Below are positions 9,911 to 43,635 of a stretch of DNA of 64,000 nt, one piece after another. The notes beneath the pieces were generated by a model that worked only from the letters and a program-made list of their open reading frames with translations, was not told where the DNA came from and ran no database searches. The number at the start of each line of letters is the position of its first letter. The first letter of the stretch is position 1. Source of the stretch: Shimia aestuarii (lineage in GTDB: Bacteria > Pseudomonadota > Alphaproteobacteria > Rhodobacterales > Rhodobacteraceae); the NCBI RefSeq assembly GCF_900114635.1, contig NZ_FOTQ01000005.1:1-64000 (forward strand). The letters are read 5' to 3'. The position numbers and the translations under genes were made by a program.

Positions 9911-9914
9911 GTCA

Positions 9915-13127: not shown

Positions 13128-13298
13128 TGTCTTTACTCCGGTTGGACAGGTTGAGCCCGCCTTATACAAAAGCTCTTGAGCAAGCGCCACAGTTGAAATA
13201 TGCGCCCTTGACGCGCCCTGTGTGTTTGGCGCTAAAGTCGATGTCCATTAGAAGACCACAAGCAGACCGTCAAAGACGGGGACTCAGGATAGGCAGCC

Positions 13299-14300: not shown

Positions 14301-14717
14301 TCAGAACTTCTCGAAGATCGTGTTCGAATTTGTATTGAGGTCAAAGCGCAGCACCACGAGGCTGTCGCCGCGGTCGTGCAGAAACGCATAGAAATAGGTA
14401 TAGCCCAACCGGTCGTGCCAATAGACACGCGCTTCTTGCCGGAACCCGTTGCCAAGATCGACGCTCTTGATCACCGCCACATTGGTGAAATCACGCTGCA
14501 TAGCATTCATCAACTGCACGTTGATCGCGTTCAGTTCGGCGTCGGTATATTTGCTGTTGCCGCCCAGTCGTTTGACCAAGGGCACAAAATCGCGATTCAT
14601 GACGCGCGCGTCGACGTAACGGGCATAGTCGGCATAGTCGGTGAACACCGATTCCTGAGCCTGGGCGGCCAGTGGCGCAAGCAGGCCGCACACAAGGGCA
14701 AGATGGGATCGGGACAT
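14301..14717 (-). CDS. Small secreted protein of unknown function (paralogue A)
   Basis: This 138-aa protein has a Sec signal peptide (about 20 residues ending AAQA before QES). The mature part is mixed and contains DLGNGFRQEARVYWHDRLGYTY followed by FYAFLHDRGDSL. The next gene upstream (14753-15178) has the same layout with GGFRQEMIGYWTEKGEYF and YVYFLLHTRETG in the same place, so the two are tandem paralogues. I do not recognise a described family. The gap between them is 35 bp and they are probably co-transcribed. Confidence 0.75.
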   Translation of the reverse strand: MSRSHLALVCGLLAPLAAQAQESVFTDYADYARYVDARVMNRDFVPLVKRLGGNSKYTDAELNAINVQLMNAMQRDFTNVAVIKSVDLGNGFRQEARVYWHDRLGYTYFYAFLHDRGDSLVVLRFDLNTNSNTIFEKF

Positions 14718-14752
14718 CGTGGCTCCTTTCCGTCGCCAAACGGACGGAATGA

Positions 14753-15178
14753 TCAGAACAGGGCGTATAGTTCGTTGAAATCGGTTCCATATCGGAATTC
14801 GAGCACATCCCGGTTGCCCCCGGTTTCACGGGTGTGCAGCAGGAAATAGACATAGAAATATTCGCCCTTTTCCGTCCAGTAACCTATCATTTCCTGACGA
14901 AACCCGCCTTTGAGCGTTTCCGAACGCACCGTGGCGTGACCGACGAAATCCCCTTCGTACAAGTTTTGCAGGTTTTCATTGAGAGCAGCGATCTCTTCCT
15001 CGTCCAGCTCAAGCTCGGAGCGGACATGTGACAGCGCCGTTCCTAGCTTCCCGCCCATTATCAGTTCGTTGAACTGGGCCACTCTTTCATTGAACAACGT
15101 GCGTTGGTTGGTTTGTGCCGCGCTCGGGGTCGTCAAACAAAGGGACAGGGAAAGGGCCAGAGCCAACATTCGAAGCAT
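14753..15178 (-). CDS. Small secreted protein of unknown function (paralogue B)
   Basis: This 141-aa protein begins with a signal peptide (MLRMLALALSLSLCLTTP, cleavage likely after SAA or AQA). The ATG at 15178 follows ATAGGA by six bases; a TTG six codons upstream is less likely. The C-terminal half shares the pattern G-GFRQE-x3-YW-x4-Y-x-YFL-x2-R with the downstream paralogue. No cysteines or catalytic motif stand out. A periplasmic or secreted binding or inhibitor role is possible but not supported by anything specific. Confidence 0.75.
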   Translation of the reverse strand: MLRMLALALSLSLCLTTPSAAQTNQRTLFNERVAQFNELIMGGKLGTALSHVRSELELDEEEIAALNENLQNLYEGDFVGHATVRSETLKGGFRQEMIGYWTEKGEYFYVYFLLHTRETGGNRDVLEFRYGTDFNELYALF

Positions 15179-30687: not shown

Positions 30688-30701
30688 TGGCGCACCTGAG
30701 A
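30688..30701 (+). repeat. attL core (14-bp direct repeat)
   Basis: TGGCGCACCTGAGA is identical to 43559-43572, the CCA end and 3' acceptor arm of tRNA-Arg(CCG). It is the 3' tRNA fragment displaced by integration. Confidence 0.85.
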
Positions 30702-30722
30702 AGCGTTTGAACGCGGTGCGCC

Positions 30723-30794
30723 ACGGTGCATAGTGGGGATTTTATGCCTGACAATTCAATCTGTTAGCCCCTACCACGCACCACCATGCACCGT
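30723..30794. repeat. Inverted repeat near attL
   Basis: ACGGTGCAT at 30723-30731 is inverted as ATGCACCGT at 30786-30794. It lies between attL and the integrase gene and may bind the integrase or an accessory factor. Confidence 0.4.
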
Positions 30795-30810
30795 TATGCC
30801 CTTGCGTTGG

Positions 30811-30830
30811 GTGTACCCCGAGGTGTACCC
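30811..30830 (+). repeat. Left arm-type repeat
   Basis: GTGTACCCCGAGGTGTACCC is itself two copies of GTGTACCC. It recurs at 43506-43525 with one mismatch, in the same orientation, 33 bp inside the right core. This placement fits integrase arm-binding sites. Confidence 0.65.
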
Positions 30831-30837
30831 CGTCTAC

Positions 30838-31971
30838 ATGGCTTTAACGAATCGAAACCTCACCACCCTGCCCGCTGGGCTTCATGCCGACTCAGGTGTT
30901 CACGGCGTCCGTGGCCTGTATCTGAAGGTCTCCCCCGCTGGGTCTCGCTCATGGATCGGACGAACGAAGATCGAAGGCAAGACCCACAAGTTCGGTCTCG
31001 GTCCCCTGCGCGAAACACCCTTGCCCCTTGCCCGTGATCGTTGGGTGCGAATACGACAACGCCTGTTTGACGGCGAGACACCTGCACAGATACGCGGCAA
31101 GTCCGACGAGACCCACCTGTTCAGCTATCTGGCCCATGCGGCCTACGCGGCCCGCAGCGCCCGTATGAAGGGCAGCAAGAAAGATCAATGGCTCACCAGC
31201 CTAGAGAGCCACATGGGCGCGCTCTGGCACCGCCCCATCAGCGAACTGACGACACCTGTCCTGATGGACCACCTTGCGCCTCTGGTGCGCACCAAGACCG
31301 AGACGGCGCGCAAGGTCGTCGGTCGGATCAGTATCGTCTTCAAGCAGGCCGATGCACTGGGCATCACTGTCCCCAACCCTGCCCCGGCGTTGCGATCCGC
31401 ATTGCCTTGGCCGAAGCGATCCAAAGATCATCATGCCGCCGTGGATCGTGCCGACGCGCCCCGTGTGTTTCAGGATATTCTCGCCAAGAACACCACGGCA
31501 TCCGCAATTCTCGCCGTAACGATCCTGACAGGCGCGCGGGCCGGGACGATCCGGCAATTGCGCCCCGAGTGGATCAAGGACGGCGTGATCATTGCCCCGC
31601 CCGAGGCCATGAAATCAGATGTGGCGCATCACTACCCCCTGACCCCGGTCGCCCGCGCCATCGTTGATCACTGGGCCAGCATGGGGGGCGATGTCGTGTT
31701 CCCGTCGCGCAGCGGCGGACCCTTGTCCGACATGGCGATCCTGAAGCTTCAGAAATCCATCGCGCCCGACACGACTGTGCACGGCTGGCGCTCGGTTTTG
31801 ACGGACTATTTGCGCGACGAACATCACGTTGGGGAAGACATCATCGACGCGACTTTGGCGCATTCCAGTCGGGCCGCGCGGGCAGCTTACGCGAGGTCAA
31901 CTTTGTCGGAGCGCCGCCTGCTACTGCTTTGTAAATGGGAAGAATTCTTGCAATCCACCATTAACCTATAG
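30838..31971 (+). CDS. int: Tyrosine integrase (P4-type, DUF4102 N-terminus)
   Basis: The integrase catalyses recombination between attP and the tRNA-Arg attB. The N-terminal DUF4102-type arm-binding domain has GVRGLYLKVSPAGSRSW (the family G-L-x-L-V-x-P-G-G-x-K-x-W pattern). Catalytic residues are R234 (TGARAGTIR), H315 and R318 (VHGWRSV), H342 (LAHSSRA) and Y351 (AAYARST). It is 377 aa from the ATG at 30838; a longer frame reads through the arm repeat and is probably not used. It lies 136 bp inside attL, the normal position. Confidence 0.93.
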   Translation: MALTNRNLTTLPAGLHADSGVHGVRGLYLKVSPAGSRSWIGRTKIEGKTHKFGLGPLRETPLPLARDRWVRIRQRLFDGETPAQIRGKSDETHLFSYLAHAAYAARSARMKGSKKDQWLTSLESHMGALWHRPISELTTPVLMDHLAPLVRTKTETARKVVGRISIVFKQADALGITVPNPAPALRSALPWPKRSKDHHAAVDRADAPRVFQDILAKNTTASAILAVTILTGARAGTIRQLRPEWIKDGVIIAPPEAMKSDVAHHYPLTPVARAIVDHWASMGGDVVFPSRSGGPLSDMAILKLQKSIAPDTTVHGWRSVLTDYLRDEHHVGEDIIDATLAHSSRAARAAYARSTLSERRLLLLCKWEEFLQSTINL

Positions 31972-31986
31972 GATTAAGTCCTATAG
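31966..31986. repeat. Perfect inverted repeat at the end of int
   Basis: CTATAGGA and TCCTATAG form an 8-bp inverted repeat with a 5-base loop, overlapping the int stop codon. It may be a weak terminator or an operator for the promoter of the following gene, whose TTGACG and TACAAT elements (20 bp apart) lie just downstream. Confidence 0.5.
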
Positions 31987-32064
31987 CTAACCCATTGTAA
32001 CTATTGACGAATCGTTCCCCACGAAGCGATACAATTCCCTATCAATCACGATAGGAGTGAAACA

Positions 32065-32247
32065 ATGCGTATGCTGACGACGCTTGAAAAAGCACGGGAA
32101 CTGGGCGTCACGGACCGGGCGCTGAAGAAGTGGCGCAAGGAAGGAAAAGGCCCGCCGTTCAAGAAGTTTGGCAAGTCGGTCCGGTACTATCCCGAAGTCC
32201 ACCCGGAACTTGGCGAAATCGTTCAGGACGAAGAGGTGAAGTCATGA
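32065..32247 (+). CDS. Small HTH protein, excisionase/AlpA type
   Basis: This 60-aa protein has the winged-helix/MerR-like excisionase layout: LTTLEKARELGVTDRALKKWRKEG is the helix-turn-helix and GPPFKKFGKSVRYYPE is the wing. Such proteins direct excision or act as AlpA-type activators of int in satellites. The ATG follows TAGGAG. It overlaps the next gene by four bases, so it leads an early operon that ends at the 33823 terminator. Confidence 0.82.
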   Translation: MRMLTTLEKARELGVTDRALKKWRKEGKGPPFKKFGKSVRYYPEVHPELGEIVQDEEVKS

Positions 32248-32687
32248 GCGAGATAAAATACTGCAAGGTGTGCGACGAAACGCTGCAACCTCGGGTGATG
32301 GATGGTTTCTGCTGCCGATGTGCAGAACAACGGAAAATCGTCGCAGAGGTGAAGTCGTTATATGGTGAGGGACCACTTGCCGCAGAAGTGTTGCGGACGT
32401 TGTTGAGTCCAAAACCGACGATCCCCGCGACCCGCCCCTTCAAAGCCATTCATGTATATAGTGATGGGGGGCTGATGACTCAGTCCATTGTTGCTTGGGA
32501 ACGCAACAATGACGGGAGTTGGTCCCCCATGGTGTTGGATGCCGGACTCGGGCTGTATGTTTTGGACGACTATCGGGAGTTCGTCCTGTTGGATGTGGAT
32601 ACCGGAACAGCGTCTTGGGCGCTTGGAACCTACGACAATCTGGAAGAGGCGCTTGCCGCCAAAGCGAAGGGGGTGCGGTATGATTGA
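32244..32687 (+). CDS. Zinc-ribbon protein of unknown function (satellite early gene)
   Basis: This 147-aa protein begins with a four-cysteine ribbon, CKVCDE then CCRCAEQ, at residues about 7-25. The rest is a compact beta-rich part with TIPATRPFKAIHVYSDGG and DYREFVLLDVDTGTASW. I do not recognise the family. It overlaps its neighbours at both ends (four and eight bases), so it is translated as part of the early operon. A role in control of a helper phage or of replication is possible but unsupported. Confidence 0.65.
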   Translation: MSEIKYCKVCDETLQPRVMDGFCCRCAEQRKIVAEVKSLYGEGPLAAEVLRTLLSPKPTIPATRPFKAIHVYSDGGLMTQSIVAWERNNDGSWSPMVLDAGLGLYVLDDYREFVLLDVDTGTASWALGTYDNLEEALAAKAKGVRYD

Positions 32688-33132
32688 ACACAATGGCTGG
32701 CTCTATGCCCCCGTCACCATGAAACATGGTTTGCCGGAATACATCCTTGCCGAAGCGGCCCGAGTATCGGGGCGCTTTGAGGCCCGAAACGGTCTGACTC
32801 TCACATCCGCGTATCTTTGGGACATCGCGGTGATCGCGGGCCTTTTGCGCGAAGATCAGACCGAGCGGGCCACGCTTCACGCGCGGGCCGTCATCAACCG
32901 GACCAAGGCGCGCAAGTACGAGACCATTATCCCGGTGCAATACACTGGTGATAAGGTGACACGCCTGCCGAATGGACCCGTGGCAGAAGTGAAGTTGCTG
33001 GAAGAATGGCGCGGTTCTTCCCTGACCACTGCTATGTTTCGCAATCTTGTGGTGATCTGGCGACGCCTAGAACGTGGCGAATTCTTCGAAGCGTTGCAGG
33101 CCGCGCTGACCGTGATCGGGGGTGTGGAATGA
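32680..33132 (+). CDS. Hypothetical protein (satellite early gene)
   Basis: This 150-aa protein has no domain I recognise. It appears helical and basic in the middle (HARAVINRTKARKYETIIP). The ATG at 32680 overlaps the previous stop by eight bases and its own stop overlaps the next start by four, which strongly supports translation of this frame. It could bind nucleic acid or a partner protein; nothing in the sequence decides. Confidence 0.62.
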   Translation: MIEHNGWLYAPVTMKHGLPEYILAEAARVSGRFEARNGLTLTSAYLWDIAVIAGLLREDQTERATLHARAVINRTKARKYETIIPVQYTGDKVTRLPNGPVAEVKLLEEWRGSSLTTAMFRNLVVIWRRLERGEFFEALQAALTVIGGVE

Positions 33133-33590
33133 ATATCCCTGACATCATCCGAAGCCATGGACTCACTGCCCTTCCCGGCTGGCACCTTCCAATCAATCAC
33201 ATCGACACCGAAAAGGACGGGGAAGTATACCTGATCGGTACGGACGACATGTCGTCCGGCGTGATGTTCGTAAACTGCAACGGCCCGAACGAACTAATCC
33301 TTCCGCTTGAGTCACGCACTGTTCATGTGGGTGAAGGATATTGCCTTGTCTCTCCCGAAGACGACCCGTGGGCAAGCCACATGTGCATCATCACGGGCGA
33401 CTACATTGATCCGAACCTGTTTGTTGCACTTCGGGATCGTGGCGACACCATCGCGCGATATTGGGGGCCAAACCTGTTCTACATGTCACACATGTTCCAA
33501 ACCACACGGCCCGACGTGTGGCGCGCGAAATATGGGAGTGTGGAATACGAGTTCATAGACAAAGGCCACTGGTACATCGACCTGTGCTAG
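33129..33590 (+). CDS. Hypothetical protein (satellite early gene)
   Basis: This 153-aa protein is acidic and rich in aromatic residues (YLIGTDDMSSGVMFVN, RYWGPNLFYMSHMF, YEFIDKGHWYIDLC). No signal peptide or membrane segment is visible and I cannot assign a family. The ATGA overlap with the preceding gene indicates coupling. Anti-defence or helper-interference proteins of satellites are often of this size and type, but this is inference from position only. Confidence 0.6.
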   Translation: MNIPDIIRSHGLTALPGWHLPINHIDTEKDGEVYLIGTDDMSSGVMFVNCNGPNELILPLESRTVHVGEGYCLVSPEDDPWASHMCIITGDYIDPNLFVALRDRGDTIARYWGPNLFYMSHMFQTTRPDVWRAKYGSVEYEFIDKGHWYIDLC

Positions 33591-33658
33591 ACTCAAGCCC
33601 GCGTCCATGTGAGATTGAGGGCAAGGAATCACACAACAAAAGACATGGAGTGTGATCC

Positions 33659-33838
33659 TTGCCTGTCTCCAAACCTGTCAAAGCTTTCGGGCGCACGTGG
33701 CCGTCACAGCGCGAACTGTGCCGTGCCTATGGTGTGAACACTGGCTCATTGACCAAGCGGCGCAAGCGCCTGCCTGACGTGTCGGTGCAGGTCCACGTAA
33801 AGGAATTGCGCGCCAAAAGGAAAACCCGCCGAGCCTGA
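33659..33838 (+). CDS. Small basic helix-turn-helix protein (59 aa, TTG start)
   Basis: Reading from TTG at 33659, eight bases after GGAG, gives a 59-aa protein with a clear helix-turn-helix: WPSQRELCRAYGVNTGSLTKRRKRL. The C-terminus is strongly basic (KELRAKRKTRRA). The terminator stem begins inside its last codons. The pattern SQRELCRAYGVNTGSL resembles small phage DNA-binding proteins and could be a repressor, an activator of the late genes or a packaging-type small subunit. Start choice and function are uncertain. Confidence 0.6.
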   Translation: MPVSKPVKAFGRTWPSQRELCRAYGVNTGSLTKRRKRLPDVSVQVHVKELRAKRKTRRA

Positions 33839-33860
33839 CTACTCGGCGGGTTCTTTTGTT
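33823..33860 (+). terminator. Rho-independent terminator ending the early operon
   Basis: An 11-bp stem (AACCCGCCGAG against CTCGGCGGGTT) with an 8-base loop is followed by CTTTTGTTTT. It separates the early genes from the primase-helicase gene. Confidence 0.88.
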
Positions 33861-33885
33861 TTCATCCAACCACGAATGAAAAGGT

Positions 33886-36231
33886 ATGACTGAAATGAAC
33901 CTACCCACAATCGACGCATCATGCAATGCTTGGAACATGCCAATGTGTTCGGGTCTCGGGCAGTACGATAGCCGCGCCGATCTGTTGAGCAACGGAACCC
34001 CGAACAATTCCCCGATGAAGGGTCTCGCCTACGACACGATCACCGGGGCGCAGATCGTGGATATGGTGGTCAATCCACCTAGTGTGGACAAAGCATCGGC
34101 CCGCTGGGTGATCCCGAGTTCGATCCACTCGAAGGACGCACGGACCCACCACCACCAGAACACCCACGGCGTCTTCTGGATGATCCCCTTCGACTTCGAT
34201 GTGGACCCACCCTCATTGGAAAGAGCGCGTGATGCGATCCTGTCGATCTTCCCCGGCGCGTATCTGGTGCAATTCACATCCAGTAGCGCCACGATGGAGA
34301 AGCCGAAGTCGCGGGCGTTCGTCTATCTGGCGCACCCGATCATCGGCGCGGATTACGGCGACACGATTGATGCGGTCTACGACATCTTGGATGAAGACCA
34401 CGGCATCAAAGCAGATCGCGCCCTGCGACGTACCGCACAACTCATTTACCTGCCCAACCGTGGCGCTTTTTATCAGCACCAGATCACCAATGGTCACGCC
34501 GTCGTGCTGACCGACGATCATCCGGTCATTGTCCGGCGCGAGGCGAACCGGGCCGAAGCCGCAGAAGCGCGCCGTAAGGCCGATGCGATCCATGAGCAAA
34601 AGCGGGCCGAGTTGGAACGTCGACGGGCAGCGGGCGAGACCTTGCCGATTGATGACTGGAACGCCCAACACAGGCTAGAAGATGTTCTGGAACGCTATGG
34701 TTACGAACAGGGCCGCATGGGGCGCTGGAAGGCACCACACAGCGAGTCGGGCAGCTTTGCCCTCTACACCTCAGAGGACGGTCGATGGACCTATTTCGGC
34801 GCGTCCATGGCAGGTGTCGGCATGGCGGGCAAAGGGTGTCAGCACGGGGACGCTTTCGACCTGTTTTTGCATCACGAACACAATGGCGACCGGAACGCGG
34901 CGCTGCGCTCGTTGGACACACCAGAGGCCGCATTCACACGCACCCTGAACGGTGCCTTTGCCGCCGGGATGCCAGAGAAGGCGACGATGCCGCCGGGTGT
35001 TGTTTCAATCCCCGAGGGCGAATGGGTCGATTTGGTGCTGGATGACAAGGGTCTCCCGGTTGCGAATTCGGCCAATGTCGCCGCCTACATCCGCAACGAG
35101 GCGATCTGGAACGAGTGCTTTGCCTATGACGCCTTCAACGAGCGTCCGGTGGTCCTGCATCCGATGCCGGGGGACAATAACAAAAAGGTGCCGCGCTTCT
35201 TGGAAGATCACGATTACATCTCGACCTTCCACTGGTTCCAGCGGTACGTCTTCCCCCGGATCGCCAAGGGCAATGTGATCGACGCCGTTGATATTGTATG
35301 CCGCAAGAACACATTTGAGCCAGTGCAGGATTATCTGCGCGCTTTGCACTGGGACGGCGTATCTCGAATCGACAATTGGCTGTTCACCTATGCTGGTGTC
35401 GACAAAAGCACCGACGACGCGATGATGACCTATCTCACACAGATCGCGCGCAAGTGGTTGATCAGTGCCGTCGCGCGGGCGATGGACCCCGGATGTCAGG
35501 TCGATCACGCGCTCGTGCTGGAAGGGGCGCAAGGCAAGGGTAAATCCAGCTTGTTCCGGGCGCTCTGCCCGACTGAGGACTGGTTCGGGGATGCCCTGCC
35601 AGATTTCCACCACAAGGATGCCAGCGAATACATGGCGGGCAAGTGGATCATCGAAATGTCCGAATTGACCAACGTGTTGAAGTCGGAAGTCGAAGACATG
35701 CGACGATTCCTCACACGCCGGGTCGAACAATTCCGCCCCAGTTACGGACGCAACGAAGTCACCCGACCACGGCGCGCGGTGTTCTGTGGATCGACCAACC
35801 GGGGCGATTACCTGAAGGACGCGGAAGGTGAGCGCCGCCTGTGGATCGCGCGGTCCATCAATTCGATGGATGTCGCAGGGTTAAAACGGGATCGCGACCA
35901 GATTTGGGCCGAAGCCTATGCGGCATACGTGGCCAAGGAACGGTGGCACCTGATGCCGGAGGTGGAAGCCTACGCGCGGACGATCCAGCAACAACGCGTC
36001 CCGATTGATGAATGGAAGCACGAATTGTCCCTGTTCTTGTCGGACAAATTTGAGGTGACGGTAAAGATGTGTTGTCACGCCTTGGGGTTGCTGGAACACG
36101 GGAAGCGCAATTCCAAAGTCGAGAAAGAAGTTGGTGCAGAACTTCGCAATCTCGGTTGGGTTTATGCGGACAGGCAATACACCCGCGAACCGTACAAGGG
36201 CCAGCTTGTGTTTGTACGCCAAAGCCTATAG
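33886..36231 (+). CDS. Primase-helicase (AEP primase plus VirE/P4-type helicase)
   Basis: This 781-aa protein likely starts replication of the excised element. The N-terminal third resembles archaeo-eukaryotic primases, with a DxD site at D103/D105 (MIPFDFDVDP). A middle segment, GCQHGDAFDLFLHHEHNGDRNAALRSL in two parts, is typical of mobile-element primases. The C-terminal virulence-associated E/SF3-like ATPase has Walker A GAQGKGKSS (547-555), Walker B WIIEMSEL (587-594) and a sensor region FCGSTNRGDYLKD. ATG 33895 is a possible alternative start. A field of iterons lies directly downstream, as for P4 alpha protein and its origin. Confidence 0.88.
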   Translation: MTEMNLPTIDASCNAWNMPMCSGLGQYDSRADLLSNGTPNNSPMKGLAYDTITGAQIVDMVVNPPSVDKASARWVIPSSIHSKDARTHHHQNTHGVFWMIPFDFDVDPPSLERARDAILSIFPGAYLVQFTSSSATMEKPKSRAFVYLAHPIIGADYGDTIDAVYDILDEDHGIKADRALRRTAQLIYLPNRGAFYQHQITNGHAVVLTDDHPVIVRREANRAEAAEARRKADAIHEQKRAELERRRAAGETLPIDDWNAQHRLEDVLERYGYEQGRMGRWKAPHSESGSFALYTSEDGRWTYFGASMAGVGMAGKGCQHGDAFDLFLHHEHNGDRNAALRSLDTPEAAFTRTLNGAFAAGMPEKATMPPGVVSIPEGEWVDLVLDDKGLPVANSANVAAYIRNEAIWNECFAYDAFNERPVVLHPMPGDNNKKVPRFLEDHDYISTFHWFQRYVFPRIAKGNVIDAVDIVCRKNTFEPVQDYLRALHWDGVSRIDNWLFTYAGVDKSTDDAMMTYLTQIARKWLISAVARAMDPGCQVDHALVLEGAQGKGKSSLFRALCPTEDWFGDALPDFHHKDASEYMAGKWIIEMSELTNVLKSEVEDMRRFLTRRVEQFRPSYGRNEVTRPRRAVFCGSTNRGDYLKDAEGERRLWIARSINSMDVAGLKRDRDQIWAEAYAAYVAKERWHLMPEVEAYARTIQQQRVPIDEWKHELSLFLSDKFEVTVKMCCHALGLLEHGKRNSKVEKEVGAELRNLGWVYADRQYTREPYKGQLVFVRQSL

Positions 36232-36243
36232 CAAATCAGGGGA

Positions 36244-36480
36244 GTAGAACAGAATGGTAGAACAGGCTGTTCTACTCCCTATAGCGAAAAACCTATAAGT
36301 TAGTAGAACAGAAAAGTAGAACACACTAAAGACTCTCTGTGGATTCAGTATCCATATAAATCAATGACTTAGCATTACTAATACCTATACAATTTAGTAC
36401 TATATAAGTAGAACAAGGTCTGTTCTACCGACAGTAAATTTTACAATATGGTCTATTAGGAAAAGGGTGTTGTGTTCTAC
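36244..36480. other. Candidate replication origin with eight iterons
   Basis: The octamer GTAGAACA occurs eight times in 237 bp: forward at 36244, 36257, 36303, 36316 and 36408, and reversed at 36268, 36421 and 36473. Two pairs form palindromes: GTAGAACAGGCTGTTCTAC (36257-36275, perfect) and 36408-36428 (5-base centre). The intervening DNA (36330-36410) is the most AT-rich in the element. It has no gene and sits just after the primase-helicase, matching the plan of P4-type satellite origins. Confidence 0.72.
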
Positions 36481-36780
36481 TCTCGACTGGAAAAACCTCT
36501 ATAACCCAACCCCTGATCAACACTGGCTATAGCGCGACCCGCTATCCCCGACACAACCACGAGGGCGGACCGAAGAGGGGTATAGTGTAAGTCCCTAGCC
36601 CCGGCTCCCCATATCCATCTCGACAACCAGCACCACCCCGGCACCACCCCGACACCAGCCAAGCACCAGACCGAGGTCAGAGCGGGATCGGCTCGACGGG
36701 GGGCGGGTGGGTCGTAACCGAAGCTTTGGGGTGCGGAACCGCACGGGGGAGTGAATCTCAAAAACGAACGGGCAAAATGA
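36481..36780. other. Non-coding stretch between origin and late promoter
   Basis: About 300 bp without a gene I can support. It is GC-rich with C/A-rich runs (CACCACCCCG repeats near 36625-36660). Antisense frames here have no recognisable features. Confidence 0.4.
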
Positions 36781-36781
36781 C

Positions 36782-36812
36782 TTGACGGTCTCTTGCTTGC
36801 GTGGGGTAATAT
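36782..36812 (+). promoter_or_regulatory. Candidate promoter of the late operon
   Basis: TTGACG at 36782-36787 and TAATAT at 36807-36812 are 19 bp apart, a good pair of hexamers with long spacing, which often indicates activator dependence. The first late gene starts at 36863. Confidence 0.5.
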
Positions 36813-36862
36813 AGCACCCCATTCCCCGCGCGCCCCGACGCGGATTGCTTGGACTGAATCTG

Positions 36863-37087
36863 ATGGAAACAGAATTATCCAGACTCATCGCAGAAGAACG
36901 CGCAGCAGCGGCGATCCAACATGCGCGAAGGATGATCGCGCGCCATGTCGGCGCACCGACGGTCTACGAGCGGCTGGATTTCTACACACATCAGATCACG
37001 TGTCTGGAAACCACCATCGCCTTCACCACCGCGCGATCTTCCAAGGACATTTTTGAAAGATGGAAGGAAGCGTATGAATCACATTGA
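36863..37087 (+). CDS. Small helical protein of unknown function
   Basis: The 74-aa protein (ATG 36863) is helical and charged (METELSRLIAEERAAAAIQ, then RRMIARHVGAPTVYERLDFY). It is the first gene after the candidate late promoter. Its end overlaps the next gene by 14 bases. A TTG six codons upstream is possible. I do not recognise it. Confidence 0.55.
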   Translation: METELSRLIAEERAAAAIQHARRMIARHVGAPTVYERLDFYTHQITCLETTIAFTTARSSKDIFERWKEAYESH

Positions 37088-37268
37088 CGCCAAAGCTTGC
37101 GCCCGCCTGTGGAGCGCAGCACTGGCGGCGCAAATAAAGGCCGCGCGTGGTGGTGATCGCGCGGCGGTACATTGGCTCCAAACCAGCGGCCCGCCCGTCG
37201 CCGCGATGATCGGGATCGACCCGGATGTCATACAAGATATAGCGGTAGATATTATAGCTAACCACTAA
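37074..37268 (+). CDS. Small hypothetical protein
   Basis: This 64-aa protein starts at ATG 37074 inside the end of the preceding gene. It is helical with ARLWSAALAAQIKAARGGDRAA followed by a hydrophobic C-terminus (DVIQDIAVDIIANH). No family is recognised. The overlap supports translation; the frame is otherwise short. Confidence 0.5.
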   Translation: MNHIDAKACARLWSAALAAQIKAARGGDRAAVHWLQTSGPPVAAMIGIDPDVIQDIAVDIIANH

Positions 37269-37291
37269 GTCTTGATCGAATCACCTACATC

Positions 37292-37387
37292 ATGCACCCT
37301 GCGCAGGACGGGCCGGGTGCGAAGAAGTTCCCTCTGCTGATCCGCTCGGTCTCGTCAAACCACCCGAACCATGGGACCGAGATATGA
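37292..37387 (+). CDS. Possible 31-aa leader peptide
   Basis: A short frame (MHPAQDGPGAKKF..., 31 aa) starts at 37292 and its stop overlaps the next ATG by four bases (ATGA), the same coupling seen throughout this operon. No ribosome site is visible before it, so it is a weak call. Confidence 0.25.
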   Translation: MHPAQDGPGAKKFPLLIRSVSSNHPNHGTEI

Positions 37388-37932
37388 CACTGACCGTCCG
37401 CACCGCGCCGACATTGGCCCGCAAGCTGATCAAATCCACTGGATATGTCCGGCGAGAACTCGCAGCGGCAAGCAAGGCCGAACAAGCAGGCCGCGAAGGC
37501 GCGACCGAGACCAGACAAAAAATCACATCCATATTCACCGACCGCTTGAAAGCCGCAGAGCAGGCCGTCGAAGATACCCTCTCCCTTGCCGAAGAATTTG
37601 AGGCCGCAGTCCATATCCTGCGCTTCAAGCAACCCGGCGCTTTCCACCCGTCGCCCGTCATCGGGGCGGCAAAGCGGTGTCTGGCGTTGGGTTGCACCAA
37701 TCCTGTTCTGATCGAAAAGCTGGAACGCGCCGCAGATCGCGCCCGAGACGCCGCAGATCGCGCCGAGAAGCGCCTGACGGATGCCGAGGCCGATCTGGAC
37801 GCAACGGCGCTTCACGGCGAATTGCTGGGCGCATTGCCCGCGTGTGACTTCGATCCACAACATCCCGACATCAAAGACCTGCGCCAAAAATACATGGCCG
37901 CAGCGAACGCATCTCGAAAGGCCCGTGCATGA
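37384..37932 (+). CDS. Coiled-coil protein of unknown function, capsid module
   Basis: This 182-aa protein is largely helical. Long heptad-like stretches occur at residues about 20-75 and 105-145 (KLERAADRARDAADRAEKR). It overlaps the next gene by four bases and lies two genes before the capsid gene. Its place and its coiled coils fit a scaffold or head-assembly protein, but no family match is apparent, so this is inference. Confidence 0.6.
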   Translation: MTLTVRTAPTLARKLIKSTGYVRRELAAASKAEQAGREGATETRQKITSIFTDRLKAAEQAVEDTLSLAEEFEAAVHILRFKQPGAFHPSPVIGAAKRCLALGCTNPVLIEKLERAADRARDAADRAEKRLTDAEADLDATALHGELLGALPACDFDPQHPDIKDLRQKYMAAANASRKARA

Positions 37933-38195
37933 GTGAGTACCGCAACCCCTATCGCCGGAAAGAGGCCGAACCCGTCCTGACCCAAGCGCAAATGCAGGTC
38001 ATCGCGCAAGCGATGGGTCAATTGATCGTCAAACACGTGAAGCCTCTTCGCGACCGCGTTGCAACCTTGGAAAAGACGCTGGAACACGCGCAGGCCGATG
38101 CCGAGGCAGCGCTCGAAAAACAGGCCGATGAATTCACACTGGATGATCTGAGCGCCATGGCCAAACGAGCAACGGAGACCCGACATGCGAAATGA
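37929..38195 (+). CDS. Small coiled-coil protein, capsid module
   Basis: This 88-aa protein has a proline- and charge-rich start (MSEYRNPYRRKEAEPVLT) and a coiled-coil part (DRVATLEKTLEHAQADAEAALEK). It overlaps its neighbours by 4 and 11 bases. A role in head assembly is possible by position. No homology can be named from the sequence. Confidence 0.55.
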   Translation: MSEYRNPYRRKEAEPVLTQAQMQVIAQAMGQLIVKHVKPLRDRVATLEKTLEHAQADAEAALEKQADEFTLDDLSAMAKRATETRHAK

Positions 38196-38397
38196 TCACA
38201 AACTGCGCGCCGCGATCCGCGCCGATTACACACTGGCAAAAGCCAAGCTTCTCGCCGCCGGATGTTCGGTCGTGGATGCCAAGCGAGAAGCCGCATCCTT
38301 TACCCGGCGCGTCTGGCGCTCCGTGGCCGAAGAAAAGTCCATCACCGGACAAAACCGCATTCGGAGCGCCCTGCGCGCCGTGATCACAGGAGACTGA
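38185..38397 (+). CDS. Small basic protein, capsid module
   Basis: This 70-aa basic protein (MRNDHKLRAAIRADYTLAKA, ASFTRRVWRSVAEEK) precedes the capsid gene by three bases. Its start overlaps the preceding gene. The high positive charge would allow DNA binding. No family recognised. Confidence 0.52.
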   Translation: MRNDHKLRAAIRADYTLAKAKLLAAGCSVVDAKREAASFTRRVWRSVAEEKSITGQNRIRSALRAVITGD

Positions 38398-38400
38398 ACA

Positions 38401-39717
38401 ATGCCCAAAGATTCCACCGCCGTGATCGGCGAAATCGAAAACCCGATTTTGCGACAGAAGGTTGCAACAGAGCGCGACCGAATGCGCGCCGAACGCGCGC
38501 TGGACCTTGCCCATGAGGAACTGAAAAACGCCGAAGCGGCGGCGGCGCGCTTGCCTGCCGTTGAGGCCGAATTGGCGACCGTGCGGCGCATGTTGGATCG
38601 TCCCCAGCGGCTCGAAGCCAGCCTGAAGGCACCCGCGCAGGCCAAGCCAGCGGTGAAGGCTCCCACGGCGCTGGGAACCATCGCTCTGGCGGTCTCTGCT
38701 GAGATTGTCCGGCGTCTGGATGGCACCGACCCCGCTGACTTTATCAAGCAGGTTCGACCGGGGGACGAATGGCGACTGGTGCGTCGTTACGCGCAGAAAG
38801 CCGCAACTGATCCGGCCTATACCAACGTCGCAGGATGGGCGCAGGAACTCACCACCACAGGACTGGGACCGGACTTTGTGGACCGCGCACCGAGCGCGGT
38901 TATCCCCCAGCTTCTCGGGGCTGGCGCGCGGGAAATGAATTTCCGTGGCCACAACGCGATGTCGTATCCCCGCCGCCTGCGCGACACCCTTCCCGCCGCG
39001 TGGAAAGAGGAAGGGACGGAAATCCCGGTCAAGGCGGGCATGTTCGGATCGGTCACGCTCACCCGTTATTCGTTGGGCGTCATCGCCACCTTGTCGGAAG
39101 AAATTCGGCGCGTATCGCGTCCCCAGATCGTGGACGTTGTTCAGCAAGGTATCATTGACGACAGCGCCCGAGCGCTCGACGGATTTTTTCTCGACGCCAA
39201 CGTCCCCGTCGCAGGCGTCCGTCCCGCTGGTATCCTGAATGGAGCCGCGTCGCAGGTGAGTGCGGGCAATGATGTTGATAGCGTCCAAGTAGACCTCAAA
39301 TGGCTACTCGGGCACCTCATCGGCATCCGCGCCCGTCGCCCCGTGTTCATCATCAACCCGCTGCGCGTGGCGTCCCTGTCATTGACCACGGCACCCGGAA
39401 CGGGCATCCGTCCGTATCAGGCTGAACTGGAACGTGGCACCCTTGCTGGCGTCCCGCTGGTCATTGCCGACAATGCCCCCGCTGATCAGGTCATCGCGAT
39501 GGATGCGGACTCGTTGTTTATGGGGATCGACATTCCCGAAATCGACATGTCGAACCAAGCGGTGTTGACCATGAGCGGCGATCCCGCGAACGACAGCGGC
39601 ACCCCAGTCCGGTCACTCTTCCAGACATGGGAAGTCGCGCTGCGGTTCGTGCAACCTGCATCGTGGGGTTTCGGGCGTCCTGATACCGTGGCCACGCTCA
39701 CATCGGTGGATTGGTAA
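38401..39717 (+). CDS. HK97-type phage major capsid protein
   Basis: This 438-aa protein forms the head shell. Residues 1-75 are a charged coiled coil like the HK97 delta (scaffold) domain, followed by an Ala/Pro/Lys linker (SLKAPAQAKPAVKAPTALG). The capsid fold follows, with LSEEIRRVSRPQIVDVVQQGI, DGFFLDANVPVAGVRPAGILNG and GTLAGVPLVIADNAPADQVIAMD as typical E-loop-distal and P-domain segments. Maturation of such proteins normally needs a prohead protease to remove the delta domain; none is found in the element. AGGAG lies before the ATG. Confidence 0.87.
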   Translation: MPKDSTAVIGEIENPILRQKVATERDRMRAERALDLAHEELKNAEAAAARLPAVEAELATVRRMLDRPQRLEASLKAPAQAKPAVKAPTALGTIALAVSAEIVRRLDGTDPADFIKQVRPGDEWRLVRRYAQKAATDPAYTNVAGWAQELTTTGLGPDFVDRAPSAVIPQLLGAGAREMNFRGHNAMSYPRRLRDTLPAAWKEEGTEIPVKAGMFGSVTLTRYSLGVIATLSEEIRRVSRPQIVDVVQQGIIDDSARALDGFFLDANVPVAGVRPAGILNGAASQVSAGNDVDSVQVDLKWLLGHLIGIRARRPVFIINPLRVASLSLTTAPGTGIRPYQAELERGTLAGVPLVIADNAPADQVIAMDADSLFMGIDIPEIDMSNQAVLTMSGDPANDSGTPVRSLFQTWEVALRFVQPASWGFGRPDTVATLTSVDW

Positions 39718-39996
39718 ATGATCATCTCAATCGACCACGACAGCCCCATCACGGCCCGCGTCAGCATCAACGGCGCACACCGCGCCACACTGACCCACCC
39801 CGGCGCTTTGAACGCCGCCATCGGCGCGTATCTCGTTGACCTGAACCTGCCCCCGCAGGCAACGGTCTGGGTCGCGCCTGAAGGCCGCAAGGCCACCCCT
39901 GCCGATGCTGGGCAATACATCGGCGCGGCAAAGGTCTACGCCGAGACAAATGGTCCGACGGCGTTGGCCAAACTGTTGAAAGGAGCGCTGACATGA
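39718..39996 (+). CDS. Small protein directly after the capsid gene
   Basis: This 92-aa protein starts immediately after the capsid stop (TAAATG) and overlaps the next gene by four bases. It is beta-rich in the first half (ISIDHDSPITARVSINGAHR) and ends in a helix (TALAKLLKGALT). By position it could be a head decoration, head-tail connector or tail-type protein, but no family pattern decides between them. Confidence 0.58.
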   Translation: MIISIDHDSPITARVSINGAHRATLTHPGALNAAIGAYLVDLNLPPQATVWVAPEGRKATPADAGQYIGAAKVYAETNGPTALAKLLKGALT

Positions 39997-40172
39997 ATCC
40001 CGATCTGGAAACCGTCAACAGTCTGCTACTCGACCTGATCAGACAGGCGCTACTCGACGGCGCGGCGATGCAGAAGAACCCCCGCGCTGACGTCAGCGAG
40101 ACCATGCGTGATCTGAACCAGCGCAGGCTCACCATTCTCGAATTGGTTGATTCGGACAGTGCTGCAGGATGA
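39993..40172 (+). CDS. Small 59-aa protein (late operon)
   Basis: A short frame, MNPDLETVNSLLLDLIRQAL..., starts with the ATGA overlap to the preceding gene and ends with LELVDSDSAAG at 40172. A GGAGCGCTGAC sequence before the ATG can serve as ribosome site. It is helical. It overlaps the next gene by up to 26 bases. Function unknown. Confidence 0.58.
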   Translation: MNPDLETVNSLLLDLIRQALLDGAAMQKNPRADVSETMRDLNQRRLTILELVDSDSAAG

Positions 40173-40389
40173 GATTGGCATAGCCCTGCGCCTGTGCTGG
40201 TGCGCTGAGGATGACGAAGCATTCGCGCGTCACGTGACGGCCCTATGCCGGGACGTGTGGCGGCTCGTGCGGTCCGATCCCTTCCCCGATCCGACGGCGC
40301 TGGCACATCACATCGAAGGCGTCCAGATGGGCGATGGAGAAGAACTCTTGCGGCGCATCCTGTCATTTGGGGAGCGCGTCCTGCAATGA
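40147..40389 (+). CDS. Small protein with conserved-looking Trp/Cys (late operon)
   Basis: About 76-80 aa, depending on whether TTG 40147 or GTG 40159 is used; neither has a good ribosome site, so coupling to the previous gene is likely. Sequence features include LRLCWCAEDDEAFARHV and LCRDVWRLVRSDPFPDP. The stop overlaps the next ATG by three bases. It resembles small tail-assembly chaperones in size and place but is not identifiable. Confidence 0.5.
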   Translation: MIRTVLQDEIGIALRLCWCAEDDEAFARHVTALCRDVWRLVRSDPFPDPTALAHHIEGVQMGDGEELLRRILSFGERVLQ

Positions 40390-41129
40390 TCCCGCTCCTA
40401 AAAGATGACCTGCCATACAAACCCTTCAGGGGCGTCCGAAAGATCGACCCGTTCAAGCCGCTGAAACACCCACCCATCGACCTCGGGAGGAAGCGCGCCA
40501 GATCGGCACTCAAAGCGCAAATTGTGCCTGATCTGGTGCGCTCCATGCGGACCTTTCACATGCAGACGGCGGCGCAGGGCGTCCAGTATTACCAAGCACA
40601 GGGTGAGGTGTTCCAGCCGGGTGATCCGGTGGTGACGCTCGTGGACGGATCGCCCAACCGAAAGGTGACAAATGTCCGTTTGGGCGGCAATATCACCTAC
40701 GTCCAAGGTCCGGGCGTTCAGGCGATCATCGAAGCGGTACAGGCCGCGTATCTCATGCTGACCGAGCAGGCTCGGTATTTCCGCGAGACAGGGCAATACA
40801 TCGGCGGGTTTGTTGTCCTGATCAACGGCGATACCGAAGTCCAACCCAGCGAACTGGATCGCTACGCCGACCGGATCGACATCGTTCAGATCATTAACGT
40901 CAGACCCTACAGCGGCAAGATCGAACGCATCCACGAGCCGTTTTACACGGTCTGGAAAGCGCTGCGGCAATTCAAATACACCGAGCGGGCATCCATCCGG
41001 CTCACTATCGGCGCGAACCCGGAACATCAGCGCGAGAAAGGTGGGAACATCGCCATGCCGATCCTGACCTTTGCCCCGCTTGGCCGAAGCCCGTCGCGCG
41101 GCCCGAACAGGAGGAATTTCTATGGTTAA
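40386..41129 (+). CDS. Hypothetical structural-type protein (247 aa)
   Basis: This 247-aa protein starts with the ATGA overlap at 40386. It has a basic N-terminus (KHPPIDLGRKRARSALK), a small beta-domain (FQPGDPVVTLVDGSPNRKVTNVRLGG) and a long helical C-terminal part (IIEAVQAAYLMLTEQARYFRETG). The last 20 residues are basic and disordered (PLGRSPSRGPNRRNFYG). It lies directly before the tape-measure-like gene, where siphophages keep tail proteins. No family can be named. Confidence 0.55.
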   Translation: MIPLLKDDLPYKPFRGVRKIDPFKPLKHPPIDLGRKRARSALKAQIVPDLVRSMRTFHMQTAAQGVQYYQAQGEVFQPGDPVVTLVDGSPNRKVTNVRLGGNITYVQGPGVQAIIEAVQAAYLMLTEQARYFRETGQYIGGFVVLINGDTEVQPSELDRYADRIDIVQIINVRPYSGKIERIHEPFYTVWKALRQFKYTERASIRLTIGANPEHQREKGGNIAMPILTFAPLGRSPSRGPNRRNFYG

Positions 41130-42732
41130 TCAAGTTCAAACGCGTCACGAAATGGTGCTTTCCGTCGACGCCGCGAAGATGCTGCGCGATCTGCAAAAAG
41201 CAGAGAAGGAAGTCGCGGACCTCGCCCAGCAATTTGATCGCGCGCAGGCGGCGGGCAAGAAGTTCCAAACGGTCGCGGCAAACACAAATCGCTCACTGCG
41301 CAACAACGGTCGCTTTGCTCAGCAGGCCGGGGTTCAGTTCGGTGATTTCCTCGTTCAAGTAGGCGGTGGCCAGAATGCCCTTCTCGCCTTCGGTCAACAG
41401 GCCAACCAGATGGCCAGCTTCATGGCGGGGCCGTGGGGGATCGGCTTCACGGTCGCGACAGGTCTTCTCGCCGCGTTCGCCGGGAAATTGGGCAAGTCTT
41501 CTGAGGAAGCCGACGAGTTGCGCAAAAAGCTGGAAGCCGCCGAGAAGGCCACGGCGGACCTTGTGCGCGAGACAGAACGCCTGCGGTCCGGCGACAGCAG
41601 GGAAGTCCAGAACCTGCGCGAAATCATCGCCGCAGAACAAGAGCGCCTGCGGATCAACGAAGCGCAGGAACGCACCACTACGAACACGCTGCGACTTAAC
41701 TCGGAGCGGATTGAGATTTTACGCACCATCCGACAGGCCGAAGCGGACCTTGCCGCGCAGTTCAATGCCGAAGAGGAAGCCCGCGCCGTCAACGATCTGC
41801 TCGAAGCCCGCGAAGGGTTGCTGAACGGCTTTTTCGGAATCTACGGATCAATTGCGGGGCGCTTGGATGAAATCTGGAAAGGTGAAAAAGCAATCACCGA
41901 CGAACTCTCCAAGCGCCTCGGGATCGCATACGAATATGCAGGTCTGATCCGGGCGGCATCCGAGGCTGAAAAGGCAATGGGTCTGGATGCTTTCGGCGGA
42001 TACGGCGACTGGCGATACGATCTTCCCCAGACTATCCGACCACCAGCCCCAGACACAGGCACCAGCACAGGCGGTGGCGGTGCCACTGGCGGTGATGTCG
42101 TCGATGACGTCCAGCGCGTGATCGACGCGCTGGAACGCGCACAGAAACAGGCCGATCAGTTCGGGCAGTCGCTGGATGTGGCCCTCGGTGGTGTGGCGTC
42201 CAGCGCCTTGGATGATTTTGTGGACGGTCTGGTGACGGGCGAGTTGGCTTTCAAAGACTTTGCGCGCTCGGTCCTCAACGATCTGGCCAAGATCATGGTG
42301 CGCGCGATCATCGTGAATTCGCTGATGTCAGCCTTTGGCGGTGTACCCGGCAACCCCACCAACACTGTGCAATCCATTATTCAAGGGTTGGCAGGCGTTC
42401 AGAGGTTCGGCAAAGGCGGTGTCGTGTCCGGTCCGACCTTGTTTCCCATGTCGGGCGGTGCGGGGCTGATGGGTGAAGCCGGACCCGAGGCCATCGTGCC
42501 TTTGCGTCGTGATGGCAACGGCGATCTGGGTGTCGGTGCCAGCCCGGTTGTGATCCACAATTACACGGGCGCGCAGGTGCAGGTTGAGGATCGCGAGGGT
42601 GAACGCCACGTGATCATCGGACAGGCGCTGGAAGCCGTGAAGAACGATTTCAGCAAGTCCATGGCCAGCGGACAGGGAACCTTTGCCCGCGCGCTGGAAG
42701 CTGGCTATGGCACCCGCAGGAAGGCGACTTGA
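41122..42732 (+). CDS. Tail tape-measure-like protein (short)
   Basis: The 536-aa protein has the general plan of a lambda-family tape-measure protein. It has an N-terminal coiled-coil part (KMLRDLQKAEKEVADLAQQF), a hydrophobic stretch around GPWGIGFTVATGLLAAFAG, a long helical region (about 120-260), and the C-terminal signature FGKGGVVSGPTLF...GLMGEAGPEAIVPLRRDGNG. Two C-terminal hydrophobic segments (IMVRAIIVNSLMSAF) are typical. An ideal AGGAGG precedes the ATG at 41122. By the rule of about 0.15 nm per residue it would specify a tail near 80 nm. Confidence 0.83.
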   Translation: MVNQVQTRHEMVLSVDAAKMLRDLQKAEKEVADLAQQFDRAQAAGKKFQTVAANTNRSLRNNGRFAQQAGVQFGDFLVQVGGGQNALLAFGQQANQMASFMAGPWGIGFTVATGLLAAFAGKLGKSSEEADELRKKLEAAEKATADLVRETERLRSGDSREVQNLREIIAAEQERLRINEAQERTTTNTLRLNSERIEILRTIRQAEADLAAQFNAEEEARAVNDLLEAREGLLNGFFGIYGSIAGRLDEIWKGEKAITDELSKRLGIAYEYAGLIRAASEAEKAMGLDAFGGYGDWRYDLPQTIRPPAPDTGTSTGGGGATGGDVVDDVQRVIDALERAQKQADQFGQSLDVALGGVASSALDDFVDGLVTGELAFKDFARSVLNDLAKIMVRAIIVNSLMSAFGGVPGNPTNTVQSIIQGLAGVQRFGKGGVVSGPTLFPMSGGAGLMGEAGPEAIVPLRRDGNGDLGVGASPVVIHNYTGAQVQVEDREGERHVIIGQALEAVKNDFSKSMASGQGTFARALEAGYGTRRKAT

Positions 42733-42733
42733 T

Positions 42734-42768
42734 AGCGTAACGCTCACACACGTGATATTCGTTACGCT
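42734..42768. repeat. Perfect inverted repeat directly before the methyltransferase start
   Basis: AGCGTAACG (42734-42742) and CGTTACGCT (42760-42768) are a perfect 9-bp inverted repeat with a 17-base loop that ends one base before the ATG. As RNA it would mask the ribosome site; as DNA it could be an operator. Confidence 0.65.
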
Positions 42769-43461
42769 ATGATCCGATGTCAGACCTGCAAAACCGCTTT
42801 CACACCCCAGCGCAAGACCGCGCGATATTGCAGCACCCGCTGCCGTATGGCCGCGTACCGAAAGCGTGAGCGTGTCCGTACCGCCCCGGTCGAGTCCGTG
42901 GTGCGCGGAACCAATGCCAACCTGATCCGTGAGGTGTGCAGGCTCTACGCGCCGTCAGGCACCACCATAGCCGACGTGACGTGGGGTAAAGGTGCGTTCT
43001 GGCACAAAGCACCCGCTGGTGTAACCGTCACCGGATCGGACCTGATCACAGCGCCCGAGGGGCGCGCGTATGACTTCACCGACTTGCCCTACGCTGACGG
43101 GGAATTTGATATTGTCGTGCTGGACCCACCGTACAAACCAAACGGGAAAACCGCCACGACCAGCGACCAATATCAGCTTCACACGGTCAGCGGCATGGAT
43201 GATGTGAAGCGTCTTTATATTGACGGCATGTCAGAGGCCGCGCGCGTCGCGGGAAGGCAAGTGTGGGTCAAATGTCAGGATATGGTCCACAATGGCCGTC
43301 AGCACGACATGATGGTCAGTGTGGTGATGCATGGCTATGTGCTGGACCTACACCTGCGTGACACCTTCATTCTGGTCGGCAACGGCAGTCCAGCATCACG
43401 GTGGGACACGCAGCATCACGCCCGAAAGCGTCATTCGTATTTGTTGGTGTTTGACGTGTGA
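42769..43461 (+). CDS. Zinc-finger DNA N6-adenine methyltransferase-like protein
   Basis: This 230-aa protein joins an N-terminal four-cysteine finger (C4, C7, C21, C25; CQTC then CSTRC, similar to bacterial C-C/C-C fingers) to a class I methyltransferase core. The SAM-binding region is IADVTWGKGAFWHK and the catalytic motif is DPPY (119-122). No recognition partner or restriction enzyme is encoded nearby, so it is probably an orphan, regulatory or protective methylase. A hairpin (TGGCGC/GCGCCA, 43462-43479) follows the stop. Confidence 0.8.
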   Translation: MIRCQTCKTAFTPQRKTARYCSTRCRMAAYRKRERVRTAPVESVVRGTNANLIREVCRLYAPSGTTIADVTWGKGAFWHKAPAGVTVTGSDLITAPEGRAYDFTDLPYADGEFDIVVLDPPYKPNGKTATTSDQYQLHTVSGMDDVKRLYIDGMSEAARVAGRQVWVKCQDMVHNGRQHDMMVSVVMHGYVLDLHLRDTFILVGNGSPASRWDTQHHARKRHSYLLVFDV

Positions 43462-43505
43462 TGGCGCATAGGAGCGCCAAGAAATGACCGACACCCGCTG
43501 TGAGA

Positions 43506-43525
43506 GTGTACCCCGAAGTGTACCC
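43506..43525 (+). repeat. Right arm-type repeat
   Basis: GTGTACCCCGAAGTGTACCC, 19 of 20 identical to 30811-30830 and in the same orientation; see that entry. Confidence 0.65.
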
Positions 43526-43558
43526 TCATTCTGTAAGTCATTGATTTATATAAAGTCG

Positions 43559-43635
<77 letters not shown>

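Follow-up and report, generated by a model that had tools for sequence, protein, structure and literature searches.

The Vibrio cholerae satellite PLE11 substitutes its own tape-measure protein (TMP) and hub protein in the tail of its helper phage and encodes a putative chaperone, and PLEs without their TMP lose 96–99.9% of transfer, according to the part of that report considered here (PMC12987554). The satellite SaPIbov5 redirects assembly to small T=4 shells with a capsid-protein homolog, Ccm (PMC8569155, also considered in part). This study concerns a 12,871-bp element of Shimia aestuarii that encodes both a TMP and an HK97-type major capsid protein (MCP). The element lies at 30688–43558 of a window of 64,000 nucleotides, by which we mean the whole stretch analysed (GCF_900114635.1, contig NZ_FOTQ01000005.1, positions 1 to 64,000), and is intact and linked to a tRNA-Arg gene. 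Its gene content makes it rather probable that it is a phage satellite that would bring its own shell and tail ruler and rely on a helper for the motor, the portal, the protease and the other tail parts. P4-like satellites and proteobacterial PICIs have, like this element, an integrase, an AlpA-like protein, a primase-helicase, tRNA integration and cargo at the end. To our knowledge, they have as a rule no MCP or TMP of their own, and SaPIbov5 has no portal or protease of its own.

The genes in the right half of the element are ordered g8–g12, MCP, g14–g17 and TMP, and those from g10 through TMP overlap or almost touch. Counts below refer to the 16 loci inspected: 14 elements of the same family, Rhodobacteraceae (the window element, W, and L014–L020, L032–L036 and L076), and L071 and L074 from other families. 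The late genes are as follows (open reading frame, ORF; amino acids, aa).

36863–37268, + strand: small late-module ORFs g8 (36863–37087, in 7/16 elements) and g9 (37074–37268, in the three elements of this genome)
37384–37932, + strand: g10, 182 aa, found in these elements only (10/16)
37929–38195, + strand: g11, 88 aa, resembling a coiled coil, N-terminus of NPY/NPF type (10/16)
38185–38397, + strand: g12, 70 aa, kept in the three elements of this genome
38401–39717, + strand: HK97-type MCP, 438 aa (phrog_617, 3.1e-24; TIGR01554, 7.2e-11, above cut-off)
39718–40172, + strand: g14 (39718–39996, in 7/16 elements, weakly in L033) and g15 (39993–40172)
40147–40389, + strand: g16, 80 aa, just upstream of g17 and TMP (6/6 elements with TMP, 0/10 without)
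40386–41129, + strand: g17, 247 aa, optional partner ahead of TMP (4/6 TMP elements; phrog_16336 of unknown function, 6.3e-5)
41122–42732, + strand: TMP, 536 aa (Tape_meas_lam_C, 2.6e-8, above cut-off; phrog_1716, 3.5e-25)

Profile searches of the ORFs of the element with Pfam, PHROGs and NCBIfam gave supported matches to none of the terminase, portal, protease, tail-tube, baseplate and lysis families. A total of 19 ORFs were called, of which 18 (all but g4) were compared with Pfam, 19 with PHROGs and 10 with NCBIfam; connectors were covered by the same scans. The AlpA-like protein showed a weak match to the terminase small subunit in its helix-turn-helix (HTH) part (phrog_57, 0.0048), against a better excisionase match (2.3e-5). 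Other weak matches were to a head fiber for g12 (0.15) and to Rz-like spanins for g6 (0.28) and TMP (0.29). The largest ORF without an assigned role is g17 with 247 aa, and large terminases and the usual portal proteins exceed this length. A minimal phage was rejected on the basis of these ORF sizes and of the profile searches, which gave no terminase or portal. In the relatives, chosen ORFs were scanned, and genome-wide searches were made with PF03354 and PF04860 alone; neither a terminase by the former (13 genomes) nor a portal by the latter (9 genomes) was located inside the related elements. The initial annotation had recognised no packaging, portal or lysis genes, which these scans bear out. 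Diverged terminase or portal genes among the small ORFs, which it had kept in view, did not appear by size or profile, nor did packaging genes inside related elements in the searches above. The element has neither the terminase and portal of an autonomous phage nor the large and small terminase subunits (TerL, TerS), portal, protease and connectors of capsid-forming PICIs (cf-PICIs), and on gene content it is satellite-like, without recognised genes for an independent virion. It combines a TMP of its own, as in PLEs, with an MCP of its own, as in cf-PICIs.

The same module was found repeatedly. Two further copies of the MCP (97% and 63% identical) are present in this genome, both in elements with the g8–TMP module, different integrases and replication genes, and other sites. 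Three more capsid–TMP elements were found in two other genera, which answers the earlier suggestion to look for the gene set in other Rhodobacteraceae; an orphan oddity was rejected on the three module copies here and the three elsewhere. The MCP protein search matched 5 of 194 relatives. With the MCP profile, matches came from 9 of 390 genomes in the order and, at E 1e-10, from 6 of 385 in the class; this genome is included in each count, and some matches are phage or prophage-like (L037, L072 and L073). MCP matches also occurred in G198 (2e-4) and G152 (1.4e-11). The TMP is present in six of the 16 elements (three in this genome, two in G415 and one in G475), and the others have the MCP without it. 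A TMP search at E 1e-20 across 394 genomes of 393 genera found this genome alone. The TMPs of L014, L015, L032 and L033 align to the window TMP nearly end to end (L032 and L033 at 36–37% identity), and the tblastn match of the L034 TMP spans the C-terminal part only. None of the 412 phage records matching the TMP covers 80% of it; among the 20 listed, one covers 73% and nineteen cover 25–37%. The integrase of L034 was not recognised. Pattern scans of genomes and viral contigs gave a single locus, L038 of Shimia thalassica, which coincides with L016 of G009, a genome from the genus of the present one.

The late operon is under purifying selection. Among the three elements of this genome, dN/dS was 0.19–0.34 for MCP, 0.27–0.39 for TMP, 0.19–0.36 for g10, 0.15–0.23 for g16 and 0.10 for g11 (one pair computed, pairs with L014 left out). 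Values for g14 (0.18–0.61) and g15 (0.73–0.76) come from short, little diverged genes, and those of g15 and g16 are biased because the two genes overlap by 26 bases. An intact satellite-like element with capsid and TMP genes, as first described, is thus confirmed by gene content, open frames, dN/dS and recurrence, and a decayed prophage was rejected on the last three. A reduced prophage remnant that has lost its packaging and most of its tail genes would fit the phage origin of MCP and TMP, the loss of the MCP N-terminus in L016 and the remnant-like state of L036. It is nevertheless extremely improbable, as MCP, g16 and TMP have open frames in six elements, this genome holds three different integrases, dN/dS of the main genes is 0.15–0.39, and no full phage falls in the MCP clade (22-row sample).

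In the MCP tree of 22 rows, a 99/97 branch separated the 14 rows of Rhodobacteraceae satellites from six phage or prophage-like rows together with L071 and L074; the placement of L076 and L074, both on long branches, is unsure. Four changes of the TMP label are required on this tree, so the gene was gained, lost or swapped several times. L071, L074 and L076 are small MCP-only elements beside tRNA genes with 9.3–10.7 kb between repeats, and L071 and L074 belong to other alphaproteobacterial families. Capsid-only satellites may be wider than the Rhodobacteraceae family. The MCP of L071 is near a true prophage MCP, so this element may have an independent origin.

The MCP showed no match in Pfam, and the profile comparison with MCPs of the PDB gave 0.002 and 0.008. 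A stretch of about 110 aa without protease precedes the capsid domain, and the phage matches start at residue 115 at the least. The alignment to phrog_617 starts at position 208 of 626, so the part where the protease is presumably placed is absent from the MCP; a scaffold-like delta domain probably makes up the first 110 residues of the latter. Twelve phage records match the MCP at 27–31% identity, of which four were examined. PAJU2 has an annotated prohead protease–capsid fusion, the proteins of SP-016 (named protease) and X2_26 have the length of a fusion, and in SOVA965 the protease gene is separate and the MCP is encoded by two genes. For g10, no match was found among 50,697 phage records, and solved-structure searches with g17 and g10 gave no useful match. 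A scaffold role for g11 is possible. The g11 homolog in L033 had a weak match to head-scaffolding PHROGs (4.6e-4) and matched other families too (SbcC-like).

The MCP resembles Ccm in being a homolog of capsid proteins that has a probable N-terminal domain and comes without a protease. It might co-assemble with the helper capsid protein, for example as pentamers, into a small mixed shell, while the TMP acts in the tail. The N-terminal stretch and the missing protease agree with such a role, which we nevertheless consider unlikely. No phage MCP is close to the satellite MCPs, the 12 matched records being the distant ones above, and the MCP occurs mostly in a block with g10, g11 and g14, an arrangement that points to a co-adapted shell. 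If used like Ccm, the MCP would also be tied to that of the helper, yet the clade has diverged (31–33% identity between this MCP and those of L017–L020). The proposal that the helper's own head is remodelled is possible; a shell of the element's own is at least as likely.

Linkage of g16 to the TMP was analysed with profiles built from some members and run unfiltered on six-frame ORFs of 21 loci. The g16 profile was present in 6/6 TMP elements and 0/10 TMP-less ones, g17 in 4/6, and g10 and g11 each in 10/16. The g16 profile already held five of the six g16 rows, so L014 is the only independent recovery, and two of the ten TMP-less elements (L016 and L036) are damaged. A weak g16 tblastn fragment in L017 (0.006) was not borne out by the profile search. 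In tailed phages, the gene of the tail-assembly chaperone sits just upstream of TMP. Position and linkage make g16 a probable tail-assembly chaperone. The g15/g16 overlap (40147–40172, different frames) is present in all three elements of this genome and resembles the frameshifted chaperone pairs of phages.

A noncoding site precedes the late module.

36726–36781, + strand: conserved noncoding site of 56 bp, lying between the replication module and the late module (alignment, weight matrix)

In the three elements of this genome, 44 of the 56 bp are identical, and the weight matrix located the site at the corresponding place in L016, L018, L019, L032 and L034, giving 8 of 16 elements. In a leave-one-out test, with the three sites of this genome removed together, the true site was best in its own locus at 37.7–55.7 bits against at most 15.5 bits in 952,876 background positions (26 loci). 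The core pattern occurred at four places in 390 genomes, all inside these elements, and the reversed control gave zero matches. One scan of viral contigs found no site, and another found five stretches without satellite-module matches; a weak AlpA match at one viral-contig stretch, L065, was judged to be chance. The replication genes adjoining the site differ within this genome, so a factor common to the elements should recognise it. It is a candidate cos or packaging site for a helper terminase, or a candidate late promoter for a late activator. Evenly balanced in our judgement is the reading that these elements form a distinct alphaproteobacterial satellite family with a virion hybrid in both halves. 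In such a virion, a small shell made by the satellite, its MCP lacking the protease found in phage relatives, would sit on the portal and motor of the helper, the helper's tail would be built to the satellite's ruler with the satellite's chaperone, and the site would lure the helper's terminase or late activator.

Satellites often carry anti-phage genes. Two of the capsid-only satellites encode defence proteins, namely a Drt-type reverse transcriptase (L018:6739–8475; Drt6 model, 1.7e-147) and SduA (L017:7262–8530; 2.8e-163). The window element could itself be mainly a defence island in which MCP and TMP serve as decoys and disrupt the assembly of heads and tails by incoming phages. The defence genes of its relatives are in line with this, as are the assembly inhibitors of other satellites, Tai (PMC11364771) and Rta (PMC12987554). 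In the parts of these reports considered here, however, neither inhibitor is described as an MCP or TMP homolog (PMC11364771, PMC12987554), and the MCP and TMP keep their domains, an operon with a conserved partner and purifying selection. We regard the decoy function as quite improbable.

The remaining features are the ends of the element, its early half and its cargo.

30688–30701, + strand: attL-like half, a direct repeat of 14 bp matching the tRNA-Arg 3′-end (repeat search)
30838–31971, + strand: tyrosine integrase, 377 aa (Pfam Phage_int_M, 3.6e-13; Arm-DNA-bind_3, 5.6e-9; Phage_integrase, 3.5e-6; phrog_1, 1e-25)
32065–32247, + strand: AlpA/excisionase-like HTH protein, 60 aa (HTH_17, 3.2e-5, below the Pfam cut-off; phrog_66, 2.3e-5)
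32244–33590, + strand: small early ORFs g3 (32244–32687), g4 (32680–33132) and g5 (33129–33590), no supported family
33659–33838, + strand: g6, HTH-like, start uncertain, no supported family
33886–36231, + strand: primase-helicase with a VapE-like domain, 781 aa (PF05272, 1.6e-76; phrog_256, 4.3e-88)
36244–36480, no strand: iteron field, GTAGAACA in both orientations (word count)
42769–43461, + strand: zinc-finger/DNA-methyltransferase-like cargo, 230 aa, closing the element (phrog_24333, 1.6e-33)
43559–43635, − strand: tRNA-Arg(CCG), integration target, with the attR-like repeat at 43559–43572 (tRNA call, Rfam)

The 14-bp direct repeat TGGCGCACCTGAGA starts at 30688 and at 43559, and the second copy is the 3′-end of tRNA-Arg(CCG), which was the sole match in the Rfam scan. 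The element is thus integrated and has an integrase and att repeats like satellites in general; the repeat here is only 14 bp. The repeat search covered 13 of the 14 Rhodobacteraceae MCP elements (L036 was left out). Flanking repeats were found in 8 of the 14, seven of them 12.3–14.8 kb in size and L076 10.3 kb. Longer repeats are those of 47 bp at tRNA-Cys (L015), 44 bp at tRNA-Cys (L034), 47 bp at tRNA-Asn (L076), 30 bp at tRNA-Ser (L016) and 23 bp beside tRNA-Met (L019); in W, L017 and L032 they are just 14–16 bp. The 18-bp repeat of L033 starts inside its own integrase gene. The search of L014, L018, L020 and L035 gave no repeat clearly above chance length.

The words GTAGAACA/TGTTCTAC occur 8 times within 36244–36480 and 9 times in the whole 64 kb, and the iteron field is a likely replication origin. 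An ORF of the C13 element shares 97% identity with g4. Directly downstream of the TMP, at the place of the methyltransferase in the window element, L014 and L015 share shuffled repeats of about 30–240 bp, and this region looks like a hot spot of cargo swapping.

Two other loci of this genome were considered as helpers. L021 (G000:C13:261001–281000, about 2508–14920) is a fourth small element of 12,412 bp between 47-bp tRNA-Asn repeats. It contains an integrase, a primase, an HNH nuclease and TerL (PF03354, 25.6 bits), the searched ORFs include none recognised as a capsid gene, and L021 is in this respect the complement of the capsid–TMP elements. The second locus, G000:C11:267744–273765, has a TMP-like ORF and a Phage_portal gene and is presumably a gene transfer agent cluster. 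The missing parts might come from this TerL-bearing satellite, the gene transfer agent cluster or both, since a separate 12.4-kb element has the terminase without a recognised capsid and the PF04860 portal lies near a TMP-like ORF. However, the L021 TerL has matches beyond this genome only in G007 and G016 (9 genomes searched), where they lie beside portal genes. G415 has two capsid–TMP elements and neither a PF04860 portal nor a PF03354 TerL, which makes the gene transfer agent a weak candidate. Resident helpers of this kind are very unlikely.

Several results weigh against a helper-dependent satellite whose shell and tail ruler are its own. The sole PF04860 portal of this genome is that of the presumed gene transfer agent cluster, and no helper was identified. 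No relative was found in viral contigs by scans with short peptide patterns, which limits that result. At the strength given above, the 56-bp candidate site is missing from the other 8 of 16 elements, and the prophages examined gave no match to it. Neither g16 nor g17 matched chaperone or tail families (Pfam and PHROGs, with NCBIfam profiles for g16), so the chaperone role of g16 is one that we infer. PF03354 covers one kind of terminase, and the TerL of L021 itself scored only 25.6 against a cut-off of 23.7 bits, so diverged terminases could be missed. The empty-site search gave matches in 25/25 genomes of the genus, nearly always to the right half or to other tRNA genes, and in the rows shown the left flank was not adjacent.

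For a helper-dependent satellite, we infer every life-cycle step, the helper and the virion from what was computed, namely gene content, boundaries, recurrence, selection, g16–TMP linkage and site conservation. Infection by a helper or its induction would lead to excision of the element and replication by its own primase-helicase and iteron origin. The late operon, beginning after the 56-bp site, would then give a small shell built from its own MCP, with g10 and g11 perhaps as scaffold-like partners. The element's TMP would serve as the tail ruler with its cognate chaperone g16 and sometimes g17, and terminase, portal, head protease, tail tube and tip as well as lysis would come from the helper. 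The resulting particle would have a satellite shell and a chimeric tail. The sizes of the seven elements with repeats, 12.3–14.8 kb, and of L076, 10.3 kb, would suit a T=4 head.

Such an element would represent a middle state between satellites that resize helper heads and satellites that bring whole heads, since shell and tail ruler would be its own and the DNA-handling parts borrowed. If this is true, a foreign shell must accept the portal, protease and motor of the helper, so the compatibility rules of virus assembly could be tested with this element. Tail manipulation by satellites, so far shown for PLEs, would also extend to another lineage, in marine bacteria.

According to the initial annotation, satellites described so far have either no capsid or a full head set. 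As worded, this is not supported in view of Ccm of SaPIbov5 (PMC8569155) and of the TMP, chaperone, hub and chimeric tails of PLEs and the putative TMPs of cf-PICIs (PMC12987554). Satellite TMPs and capsid homologs are thus each known, and their combination here is new. The open literature considered, in part and excluding the main cf-PICI, VEIME and tycheposon accounts, yielded no satellite described as having capsid and TMP genes in the absence of packaging genes, and the part considered of a Rhodobacteraceae prophage survey does not mention a tape measure (PMC8224337).

The comparison with known systems, as far as the cited reports were considered, is as follows. The Pseudomonas element AH14b, with the helper AH14a, resembles the window element in a P4-like integrase, an AlpA-like protein, a primase and a tail-assembly-protein homolog (PMC4936722); it differs in that its genes include none identified as encoding a capsid, and those virion proteins that were found belonged to the helper (PMC4936722). 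Pseudomonas PAJU2, Salmonella FSL SP-016 and Rhizobium RHph_X2_26 have related capsid domains (27–31% identity), whereas their MCPs include a protease part (annotated in PAJU2, presumed in the others from length and name) and TerL and portal genes are nearby. The cos-type SaPI SaPIbov5 shares a satellite-borne HK97-fold capsid homolog and a small shell, but no TMP is described for it and Ccm alone is insufficient for shells (PMC8569155). The cf-PICIs share the own MCP, the dependence on helper tails and, in some, putative tmp genes (PMC12987554, Extended Data Fig. 10); they encode MCP, protease, portal, connectors, TerS, TerL and HNH (PMC10690885), whereas in the window element the MCP alone of these was recognised. 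PLE1, PLE4 and PLE11 share with it a TMP of their own; they also have a putative tail chaperone, a role for which g16 is the candidate in the window element. PLE11 builds chimeric tails on helper parts (PMC12987554), and its virions contain helper capsid proteins, whereas the window element encodes its own HK97-type MCP.

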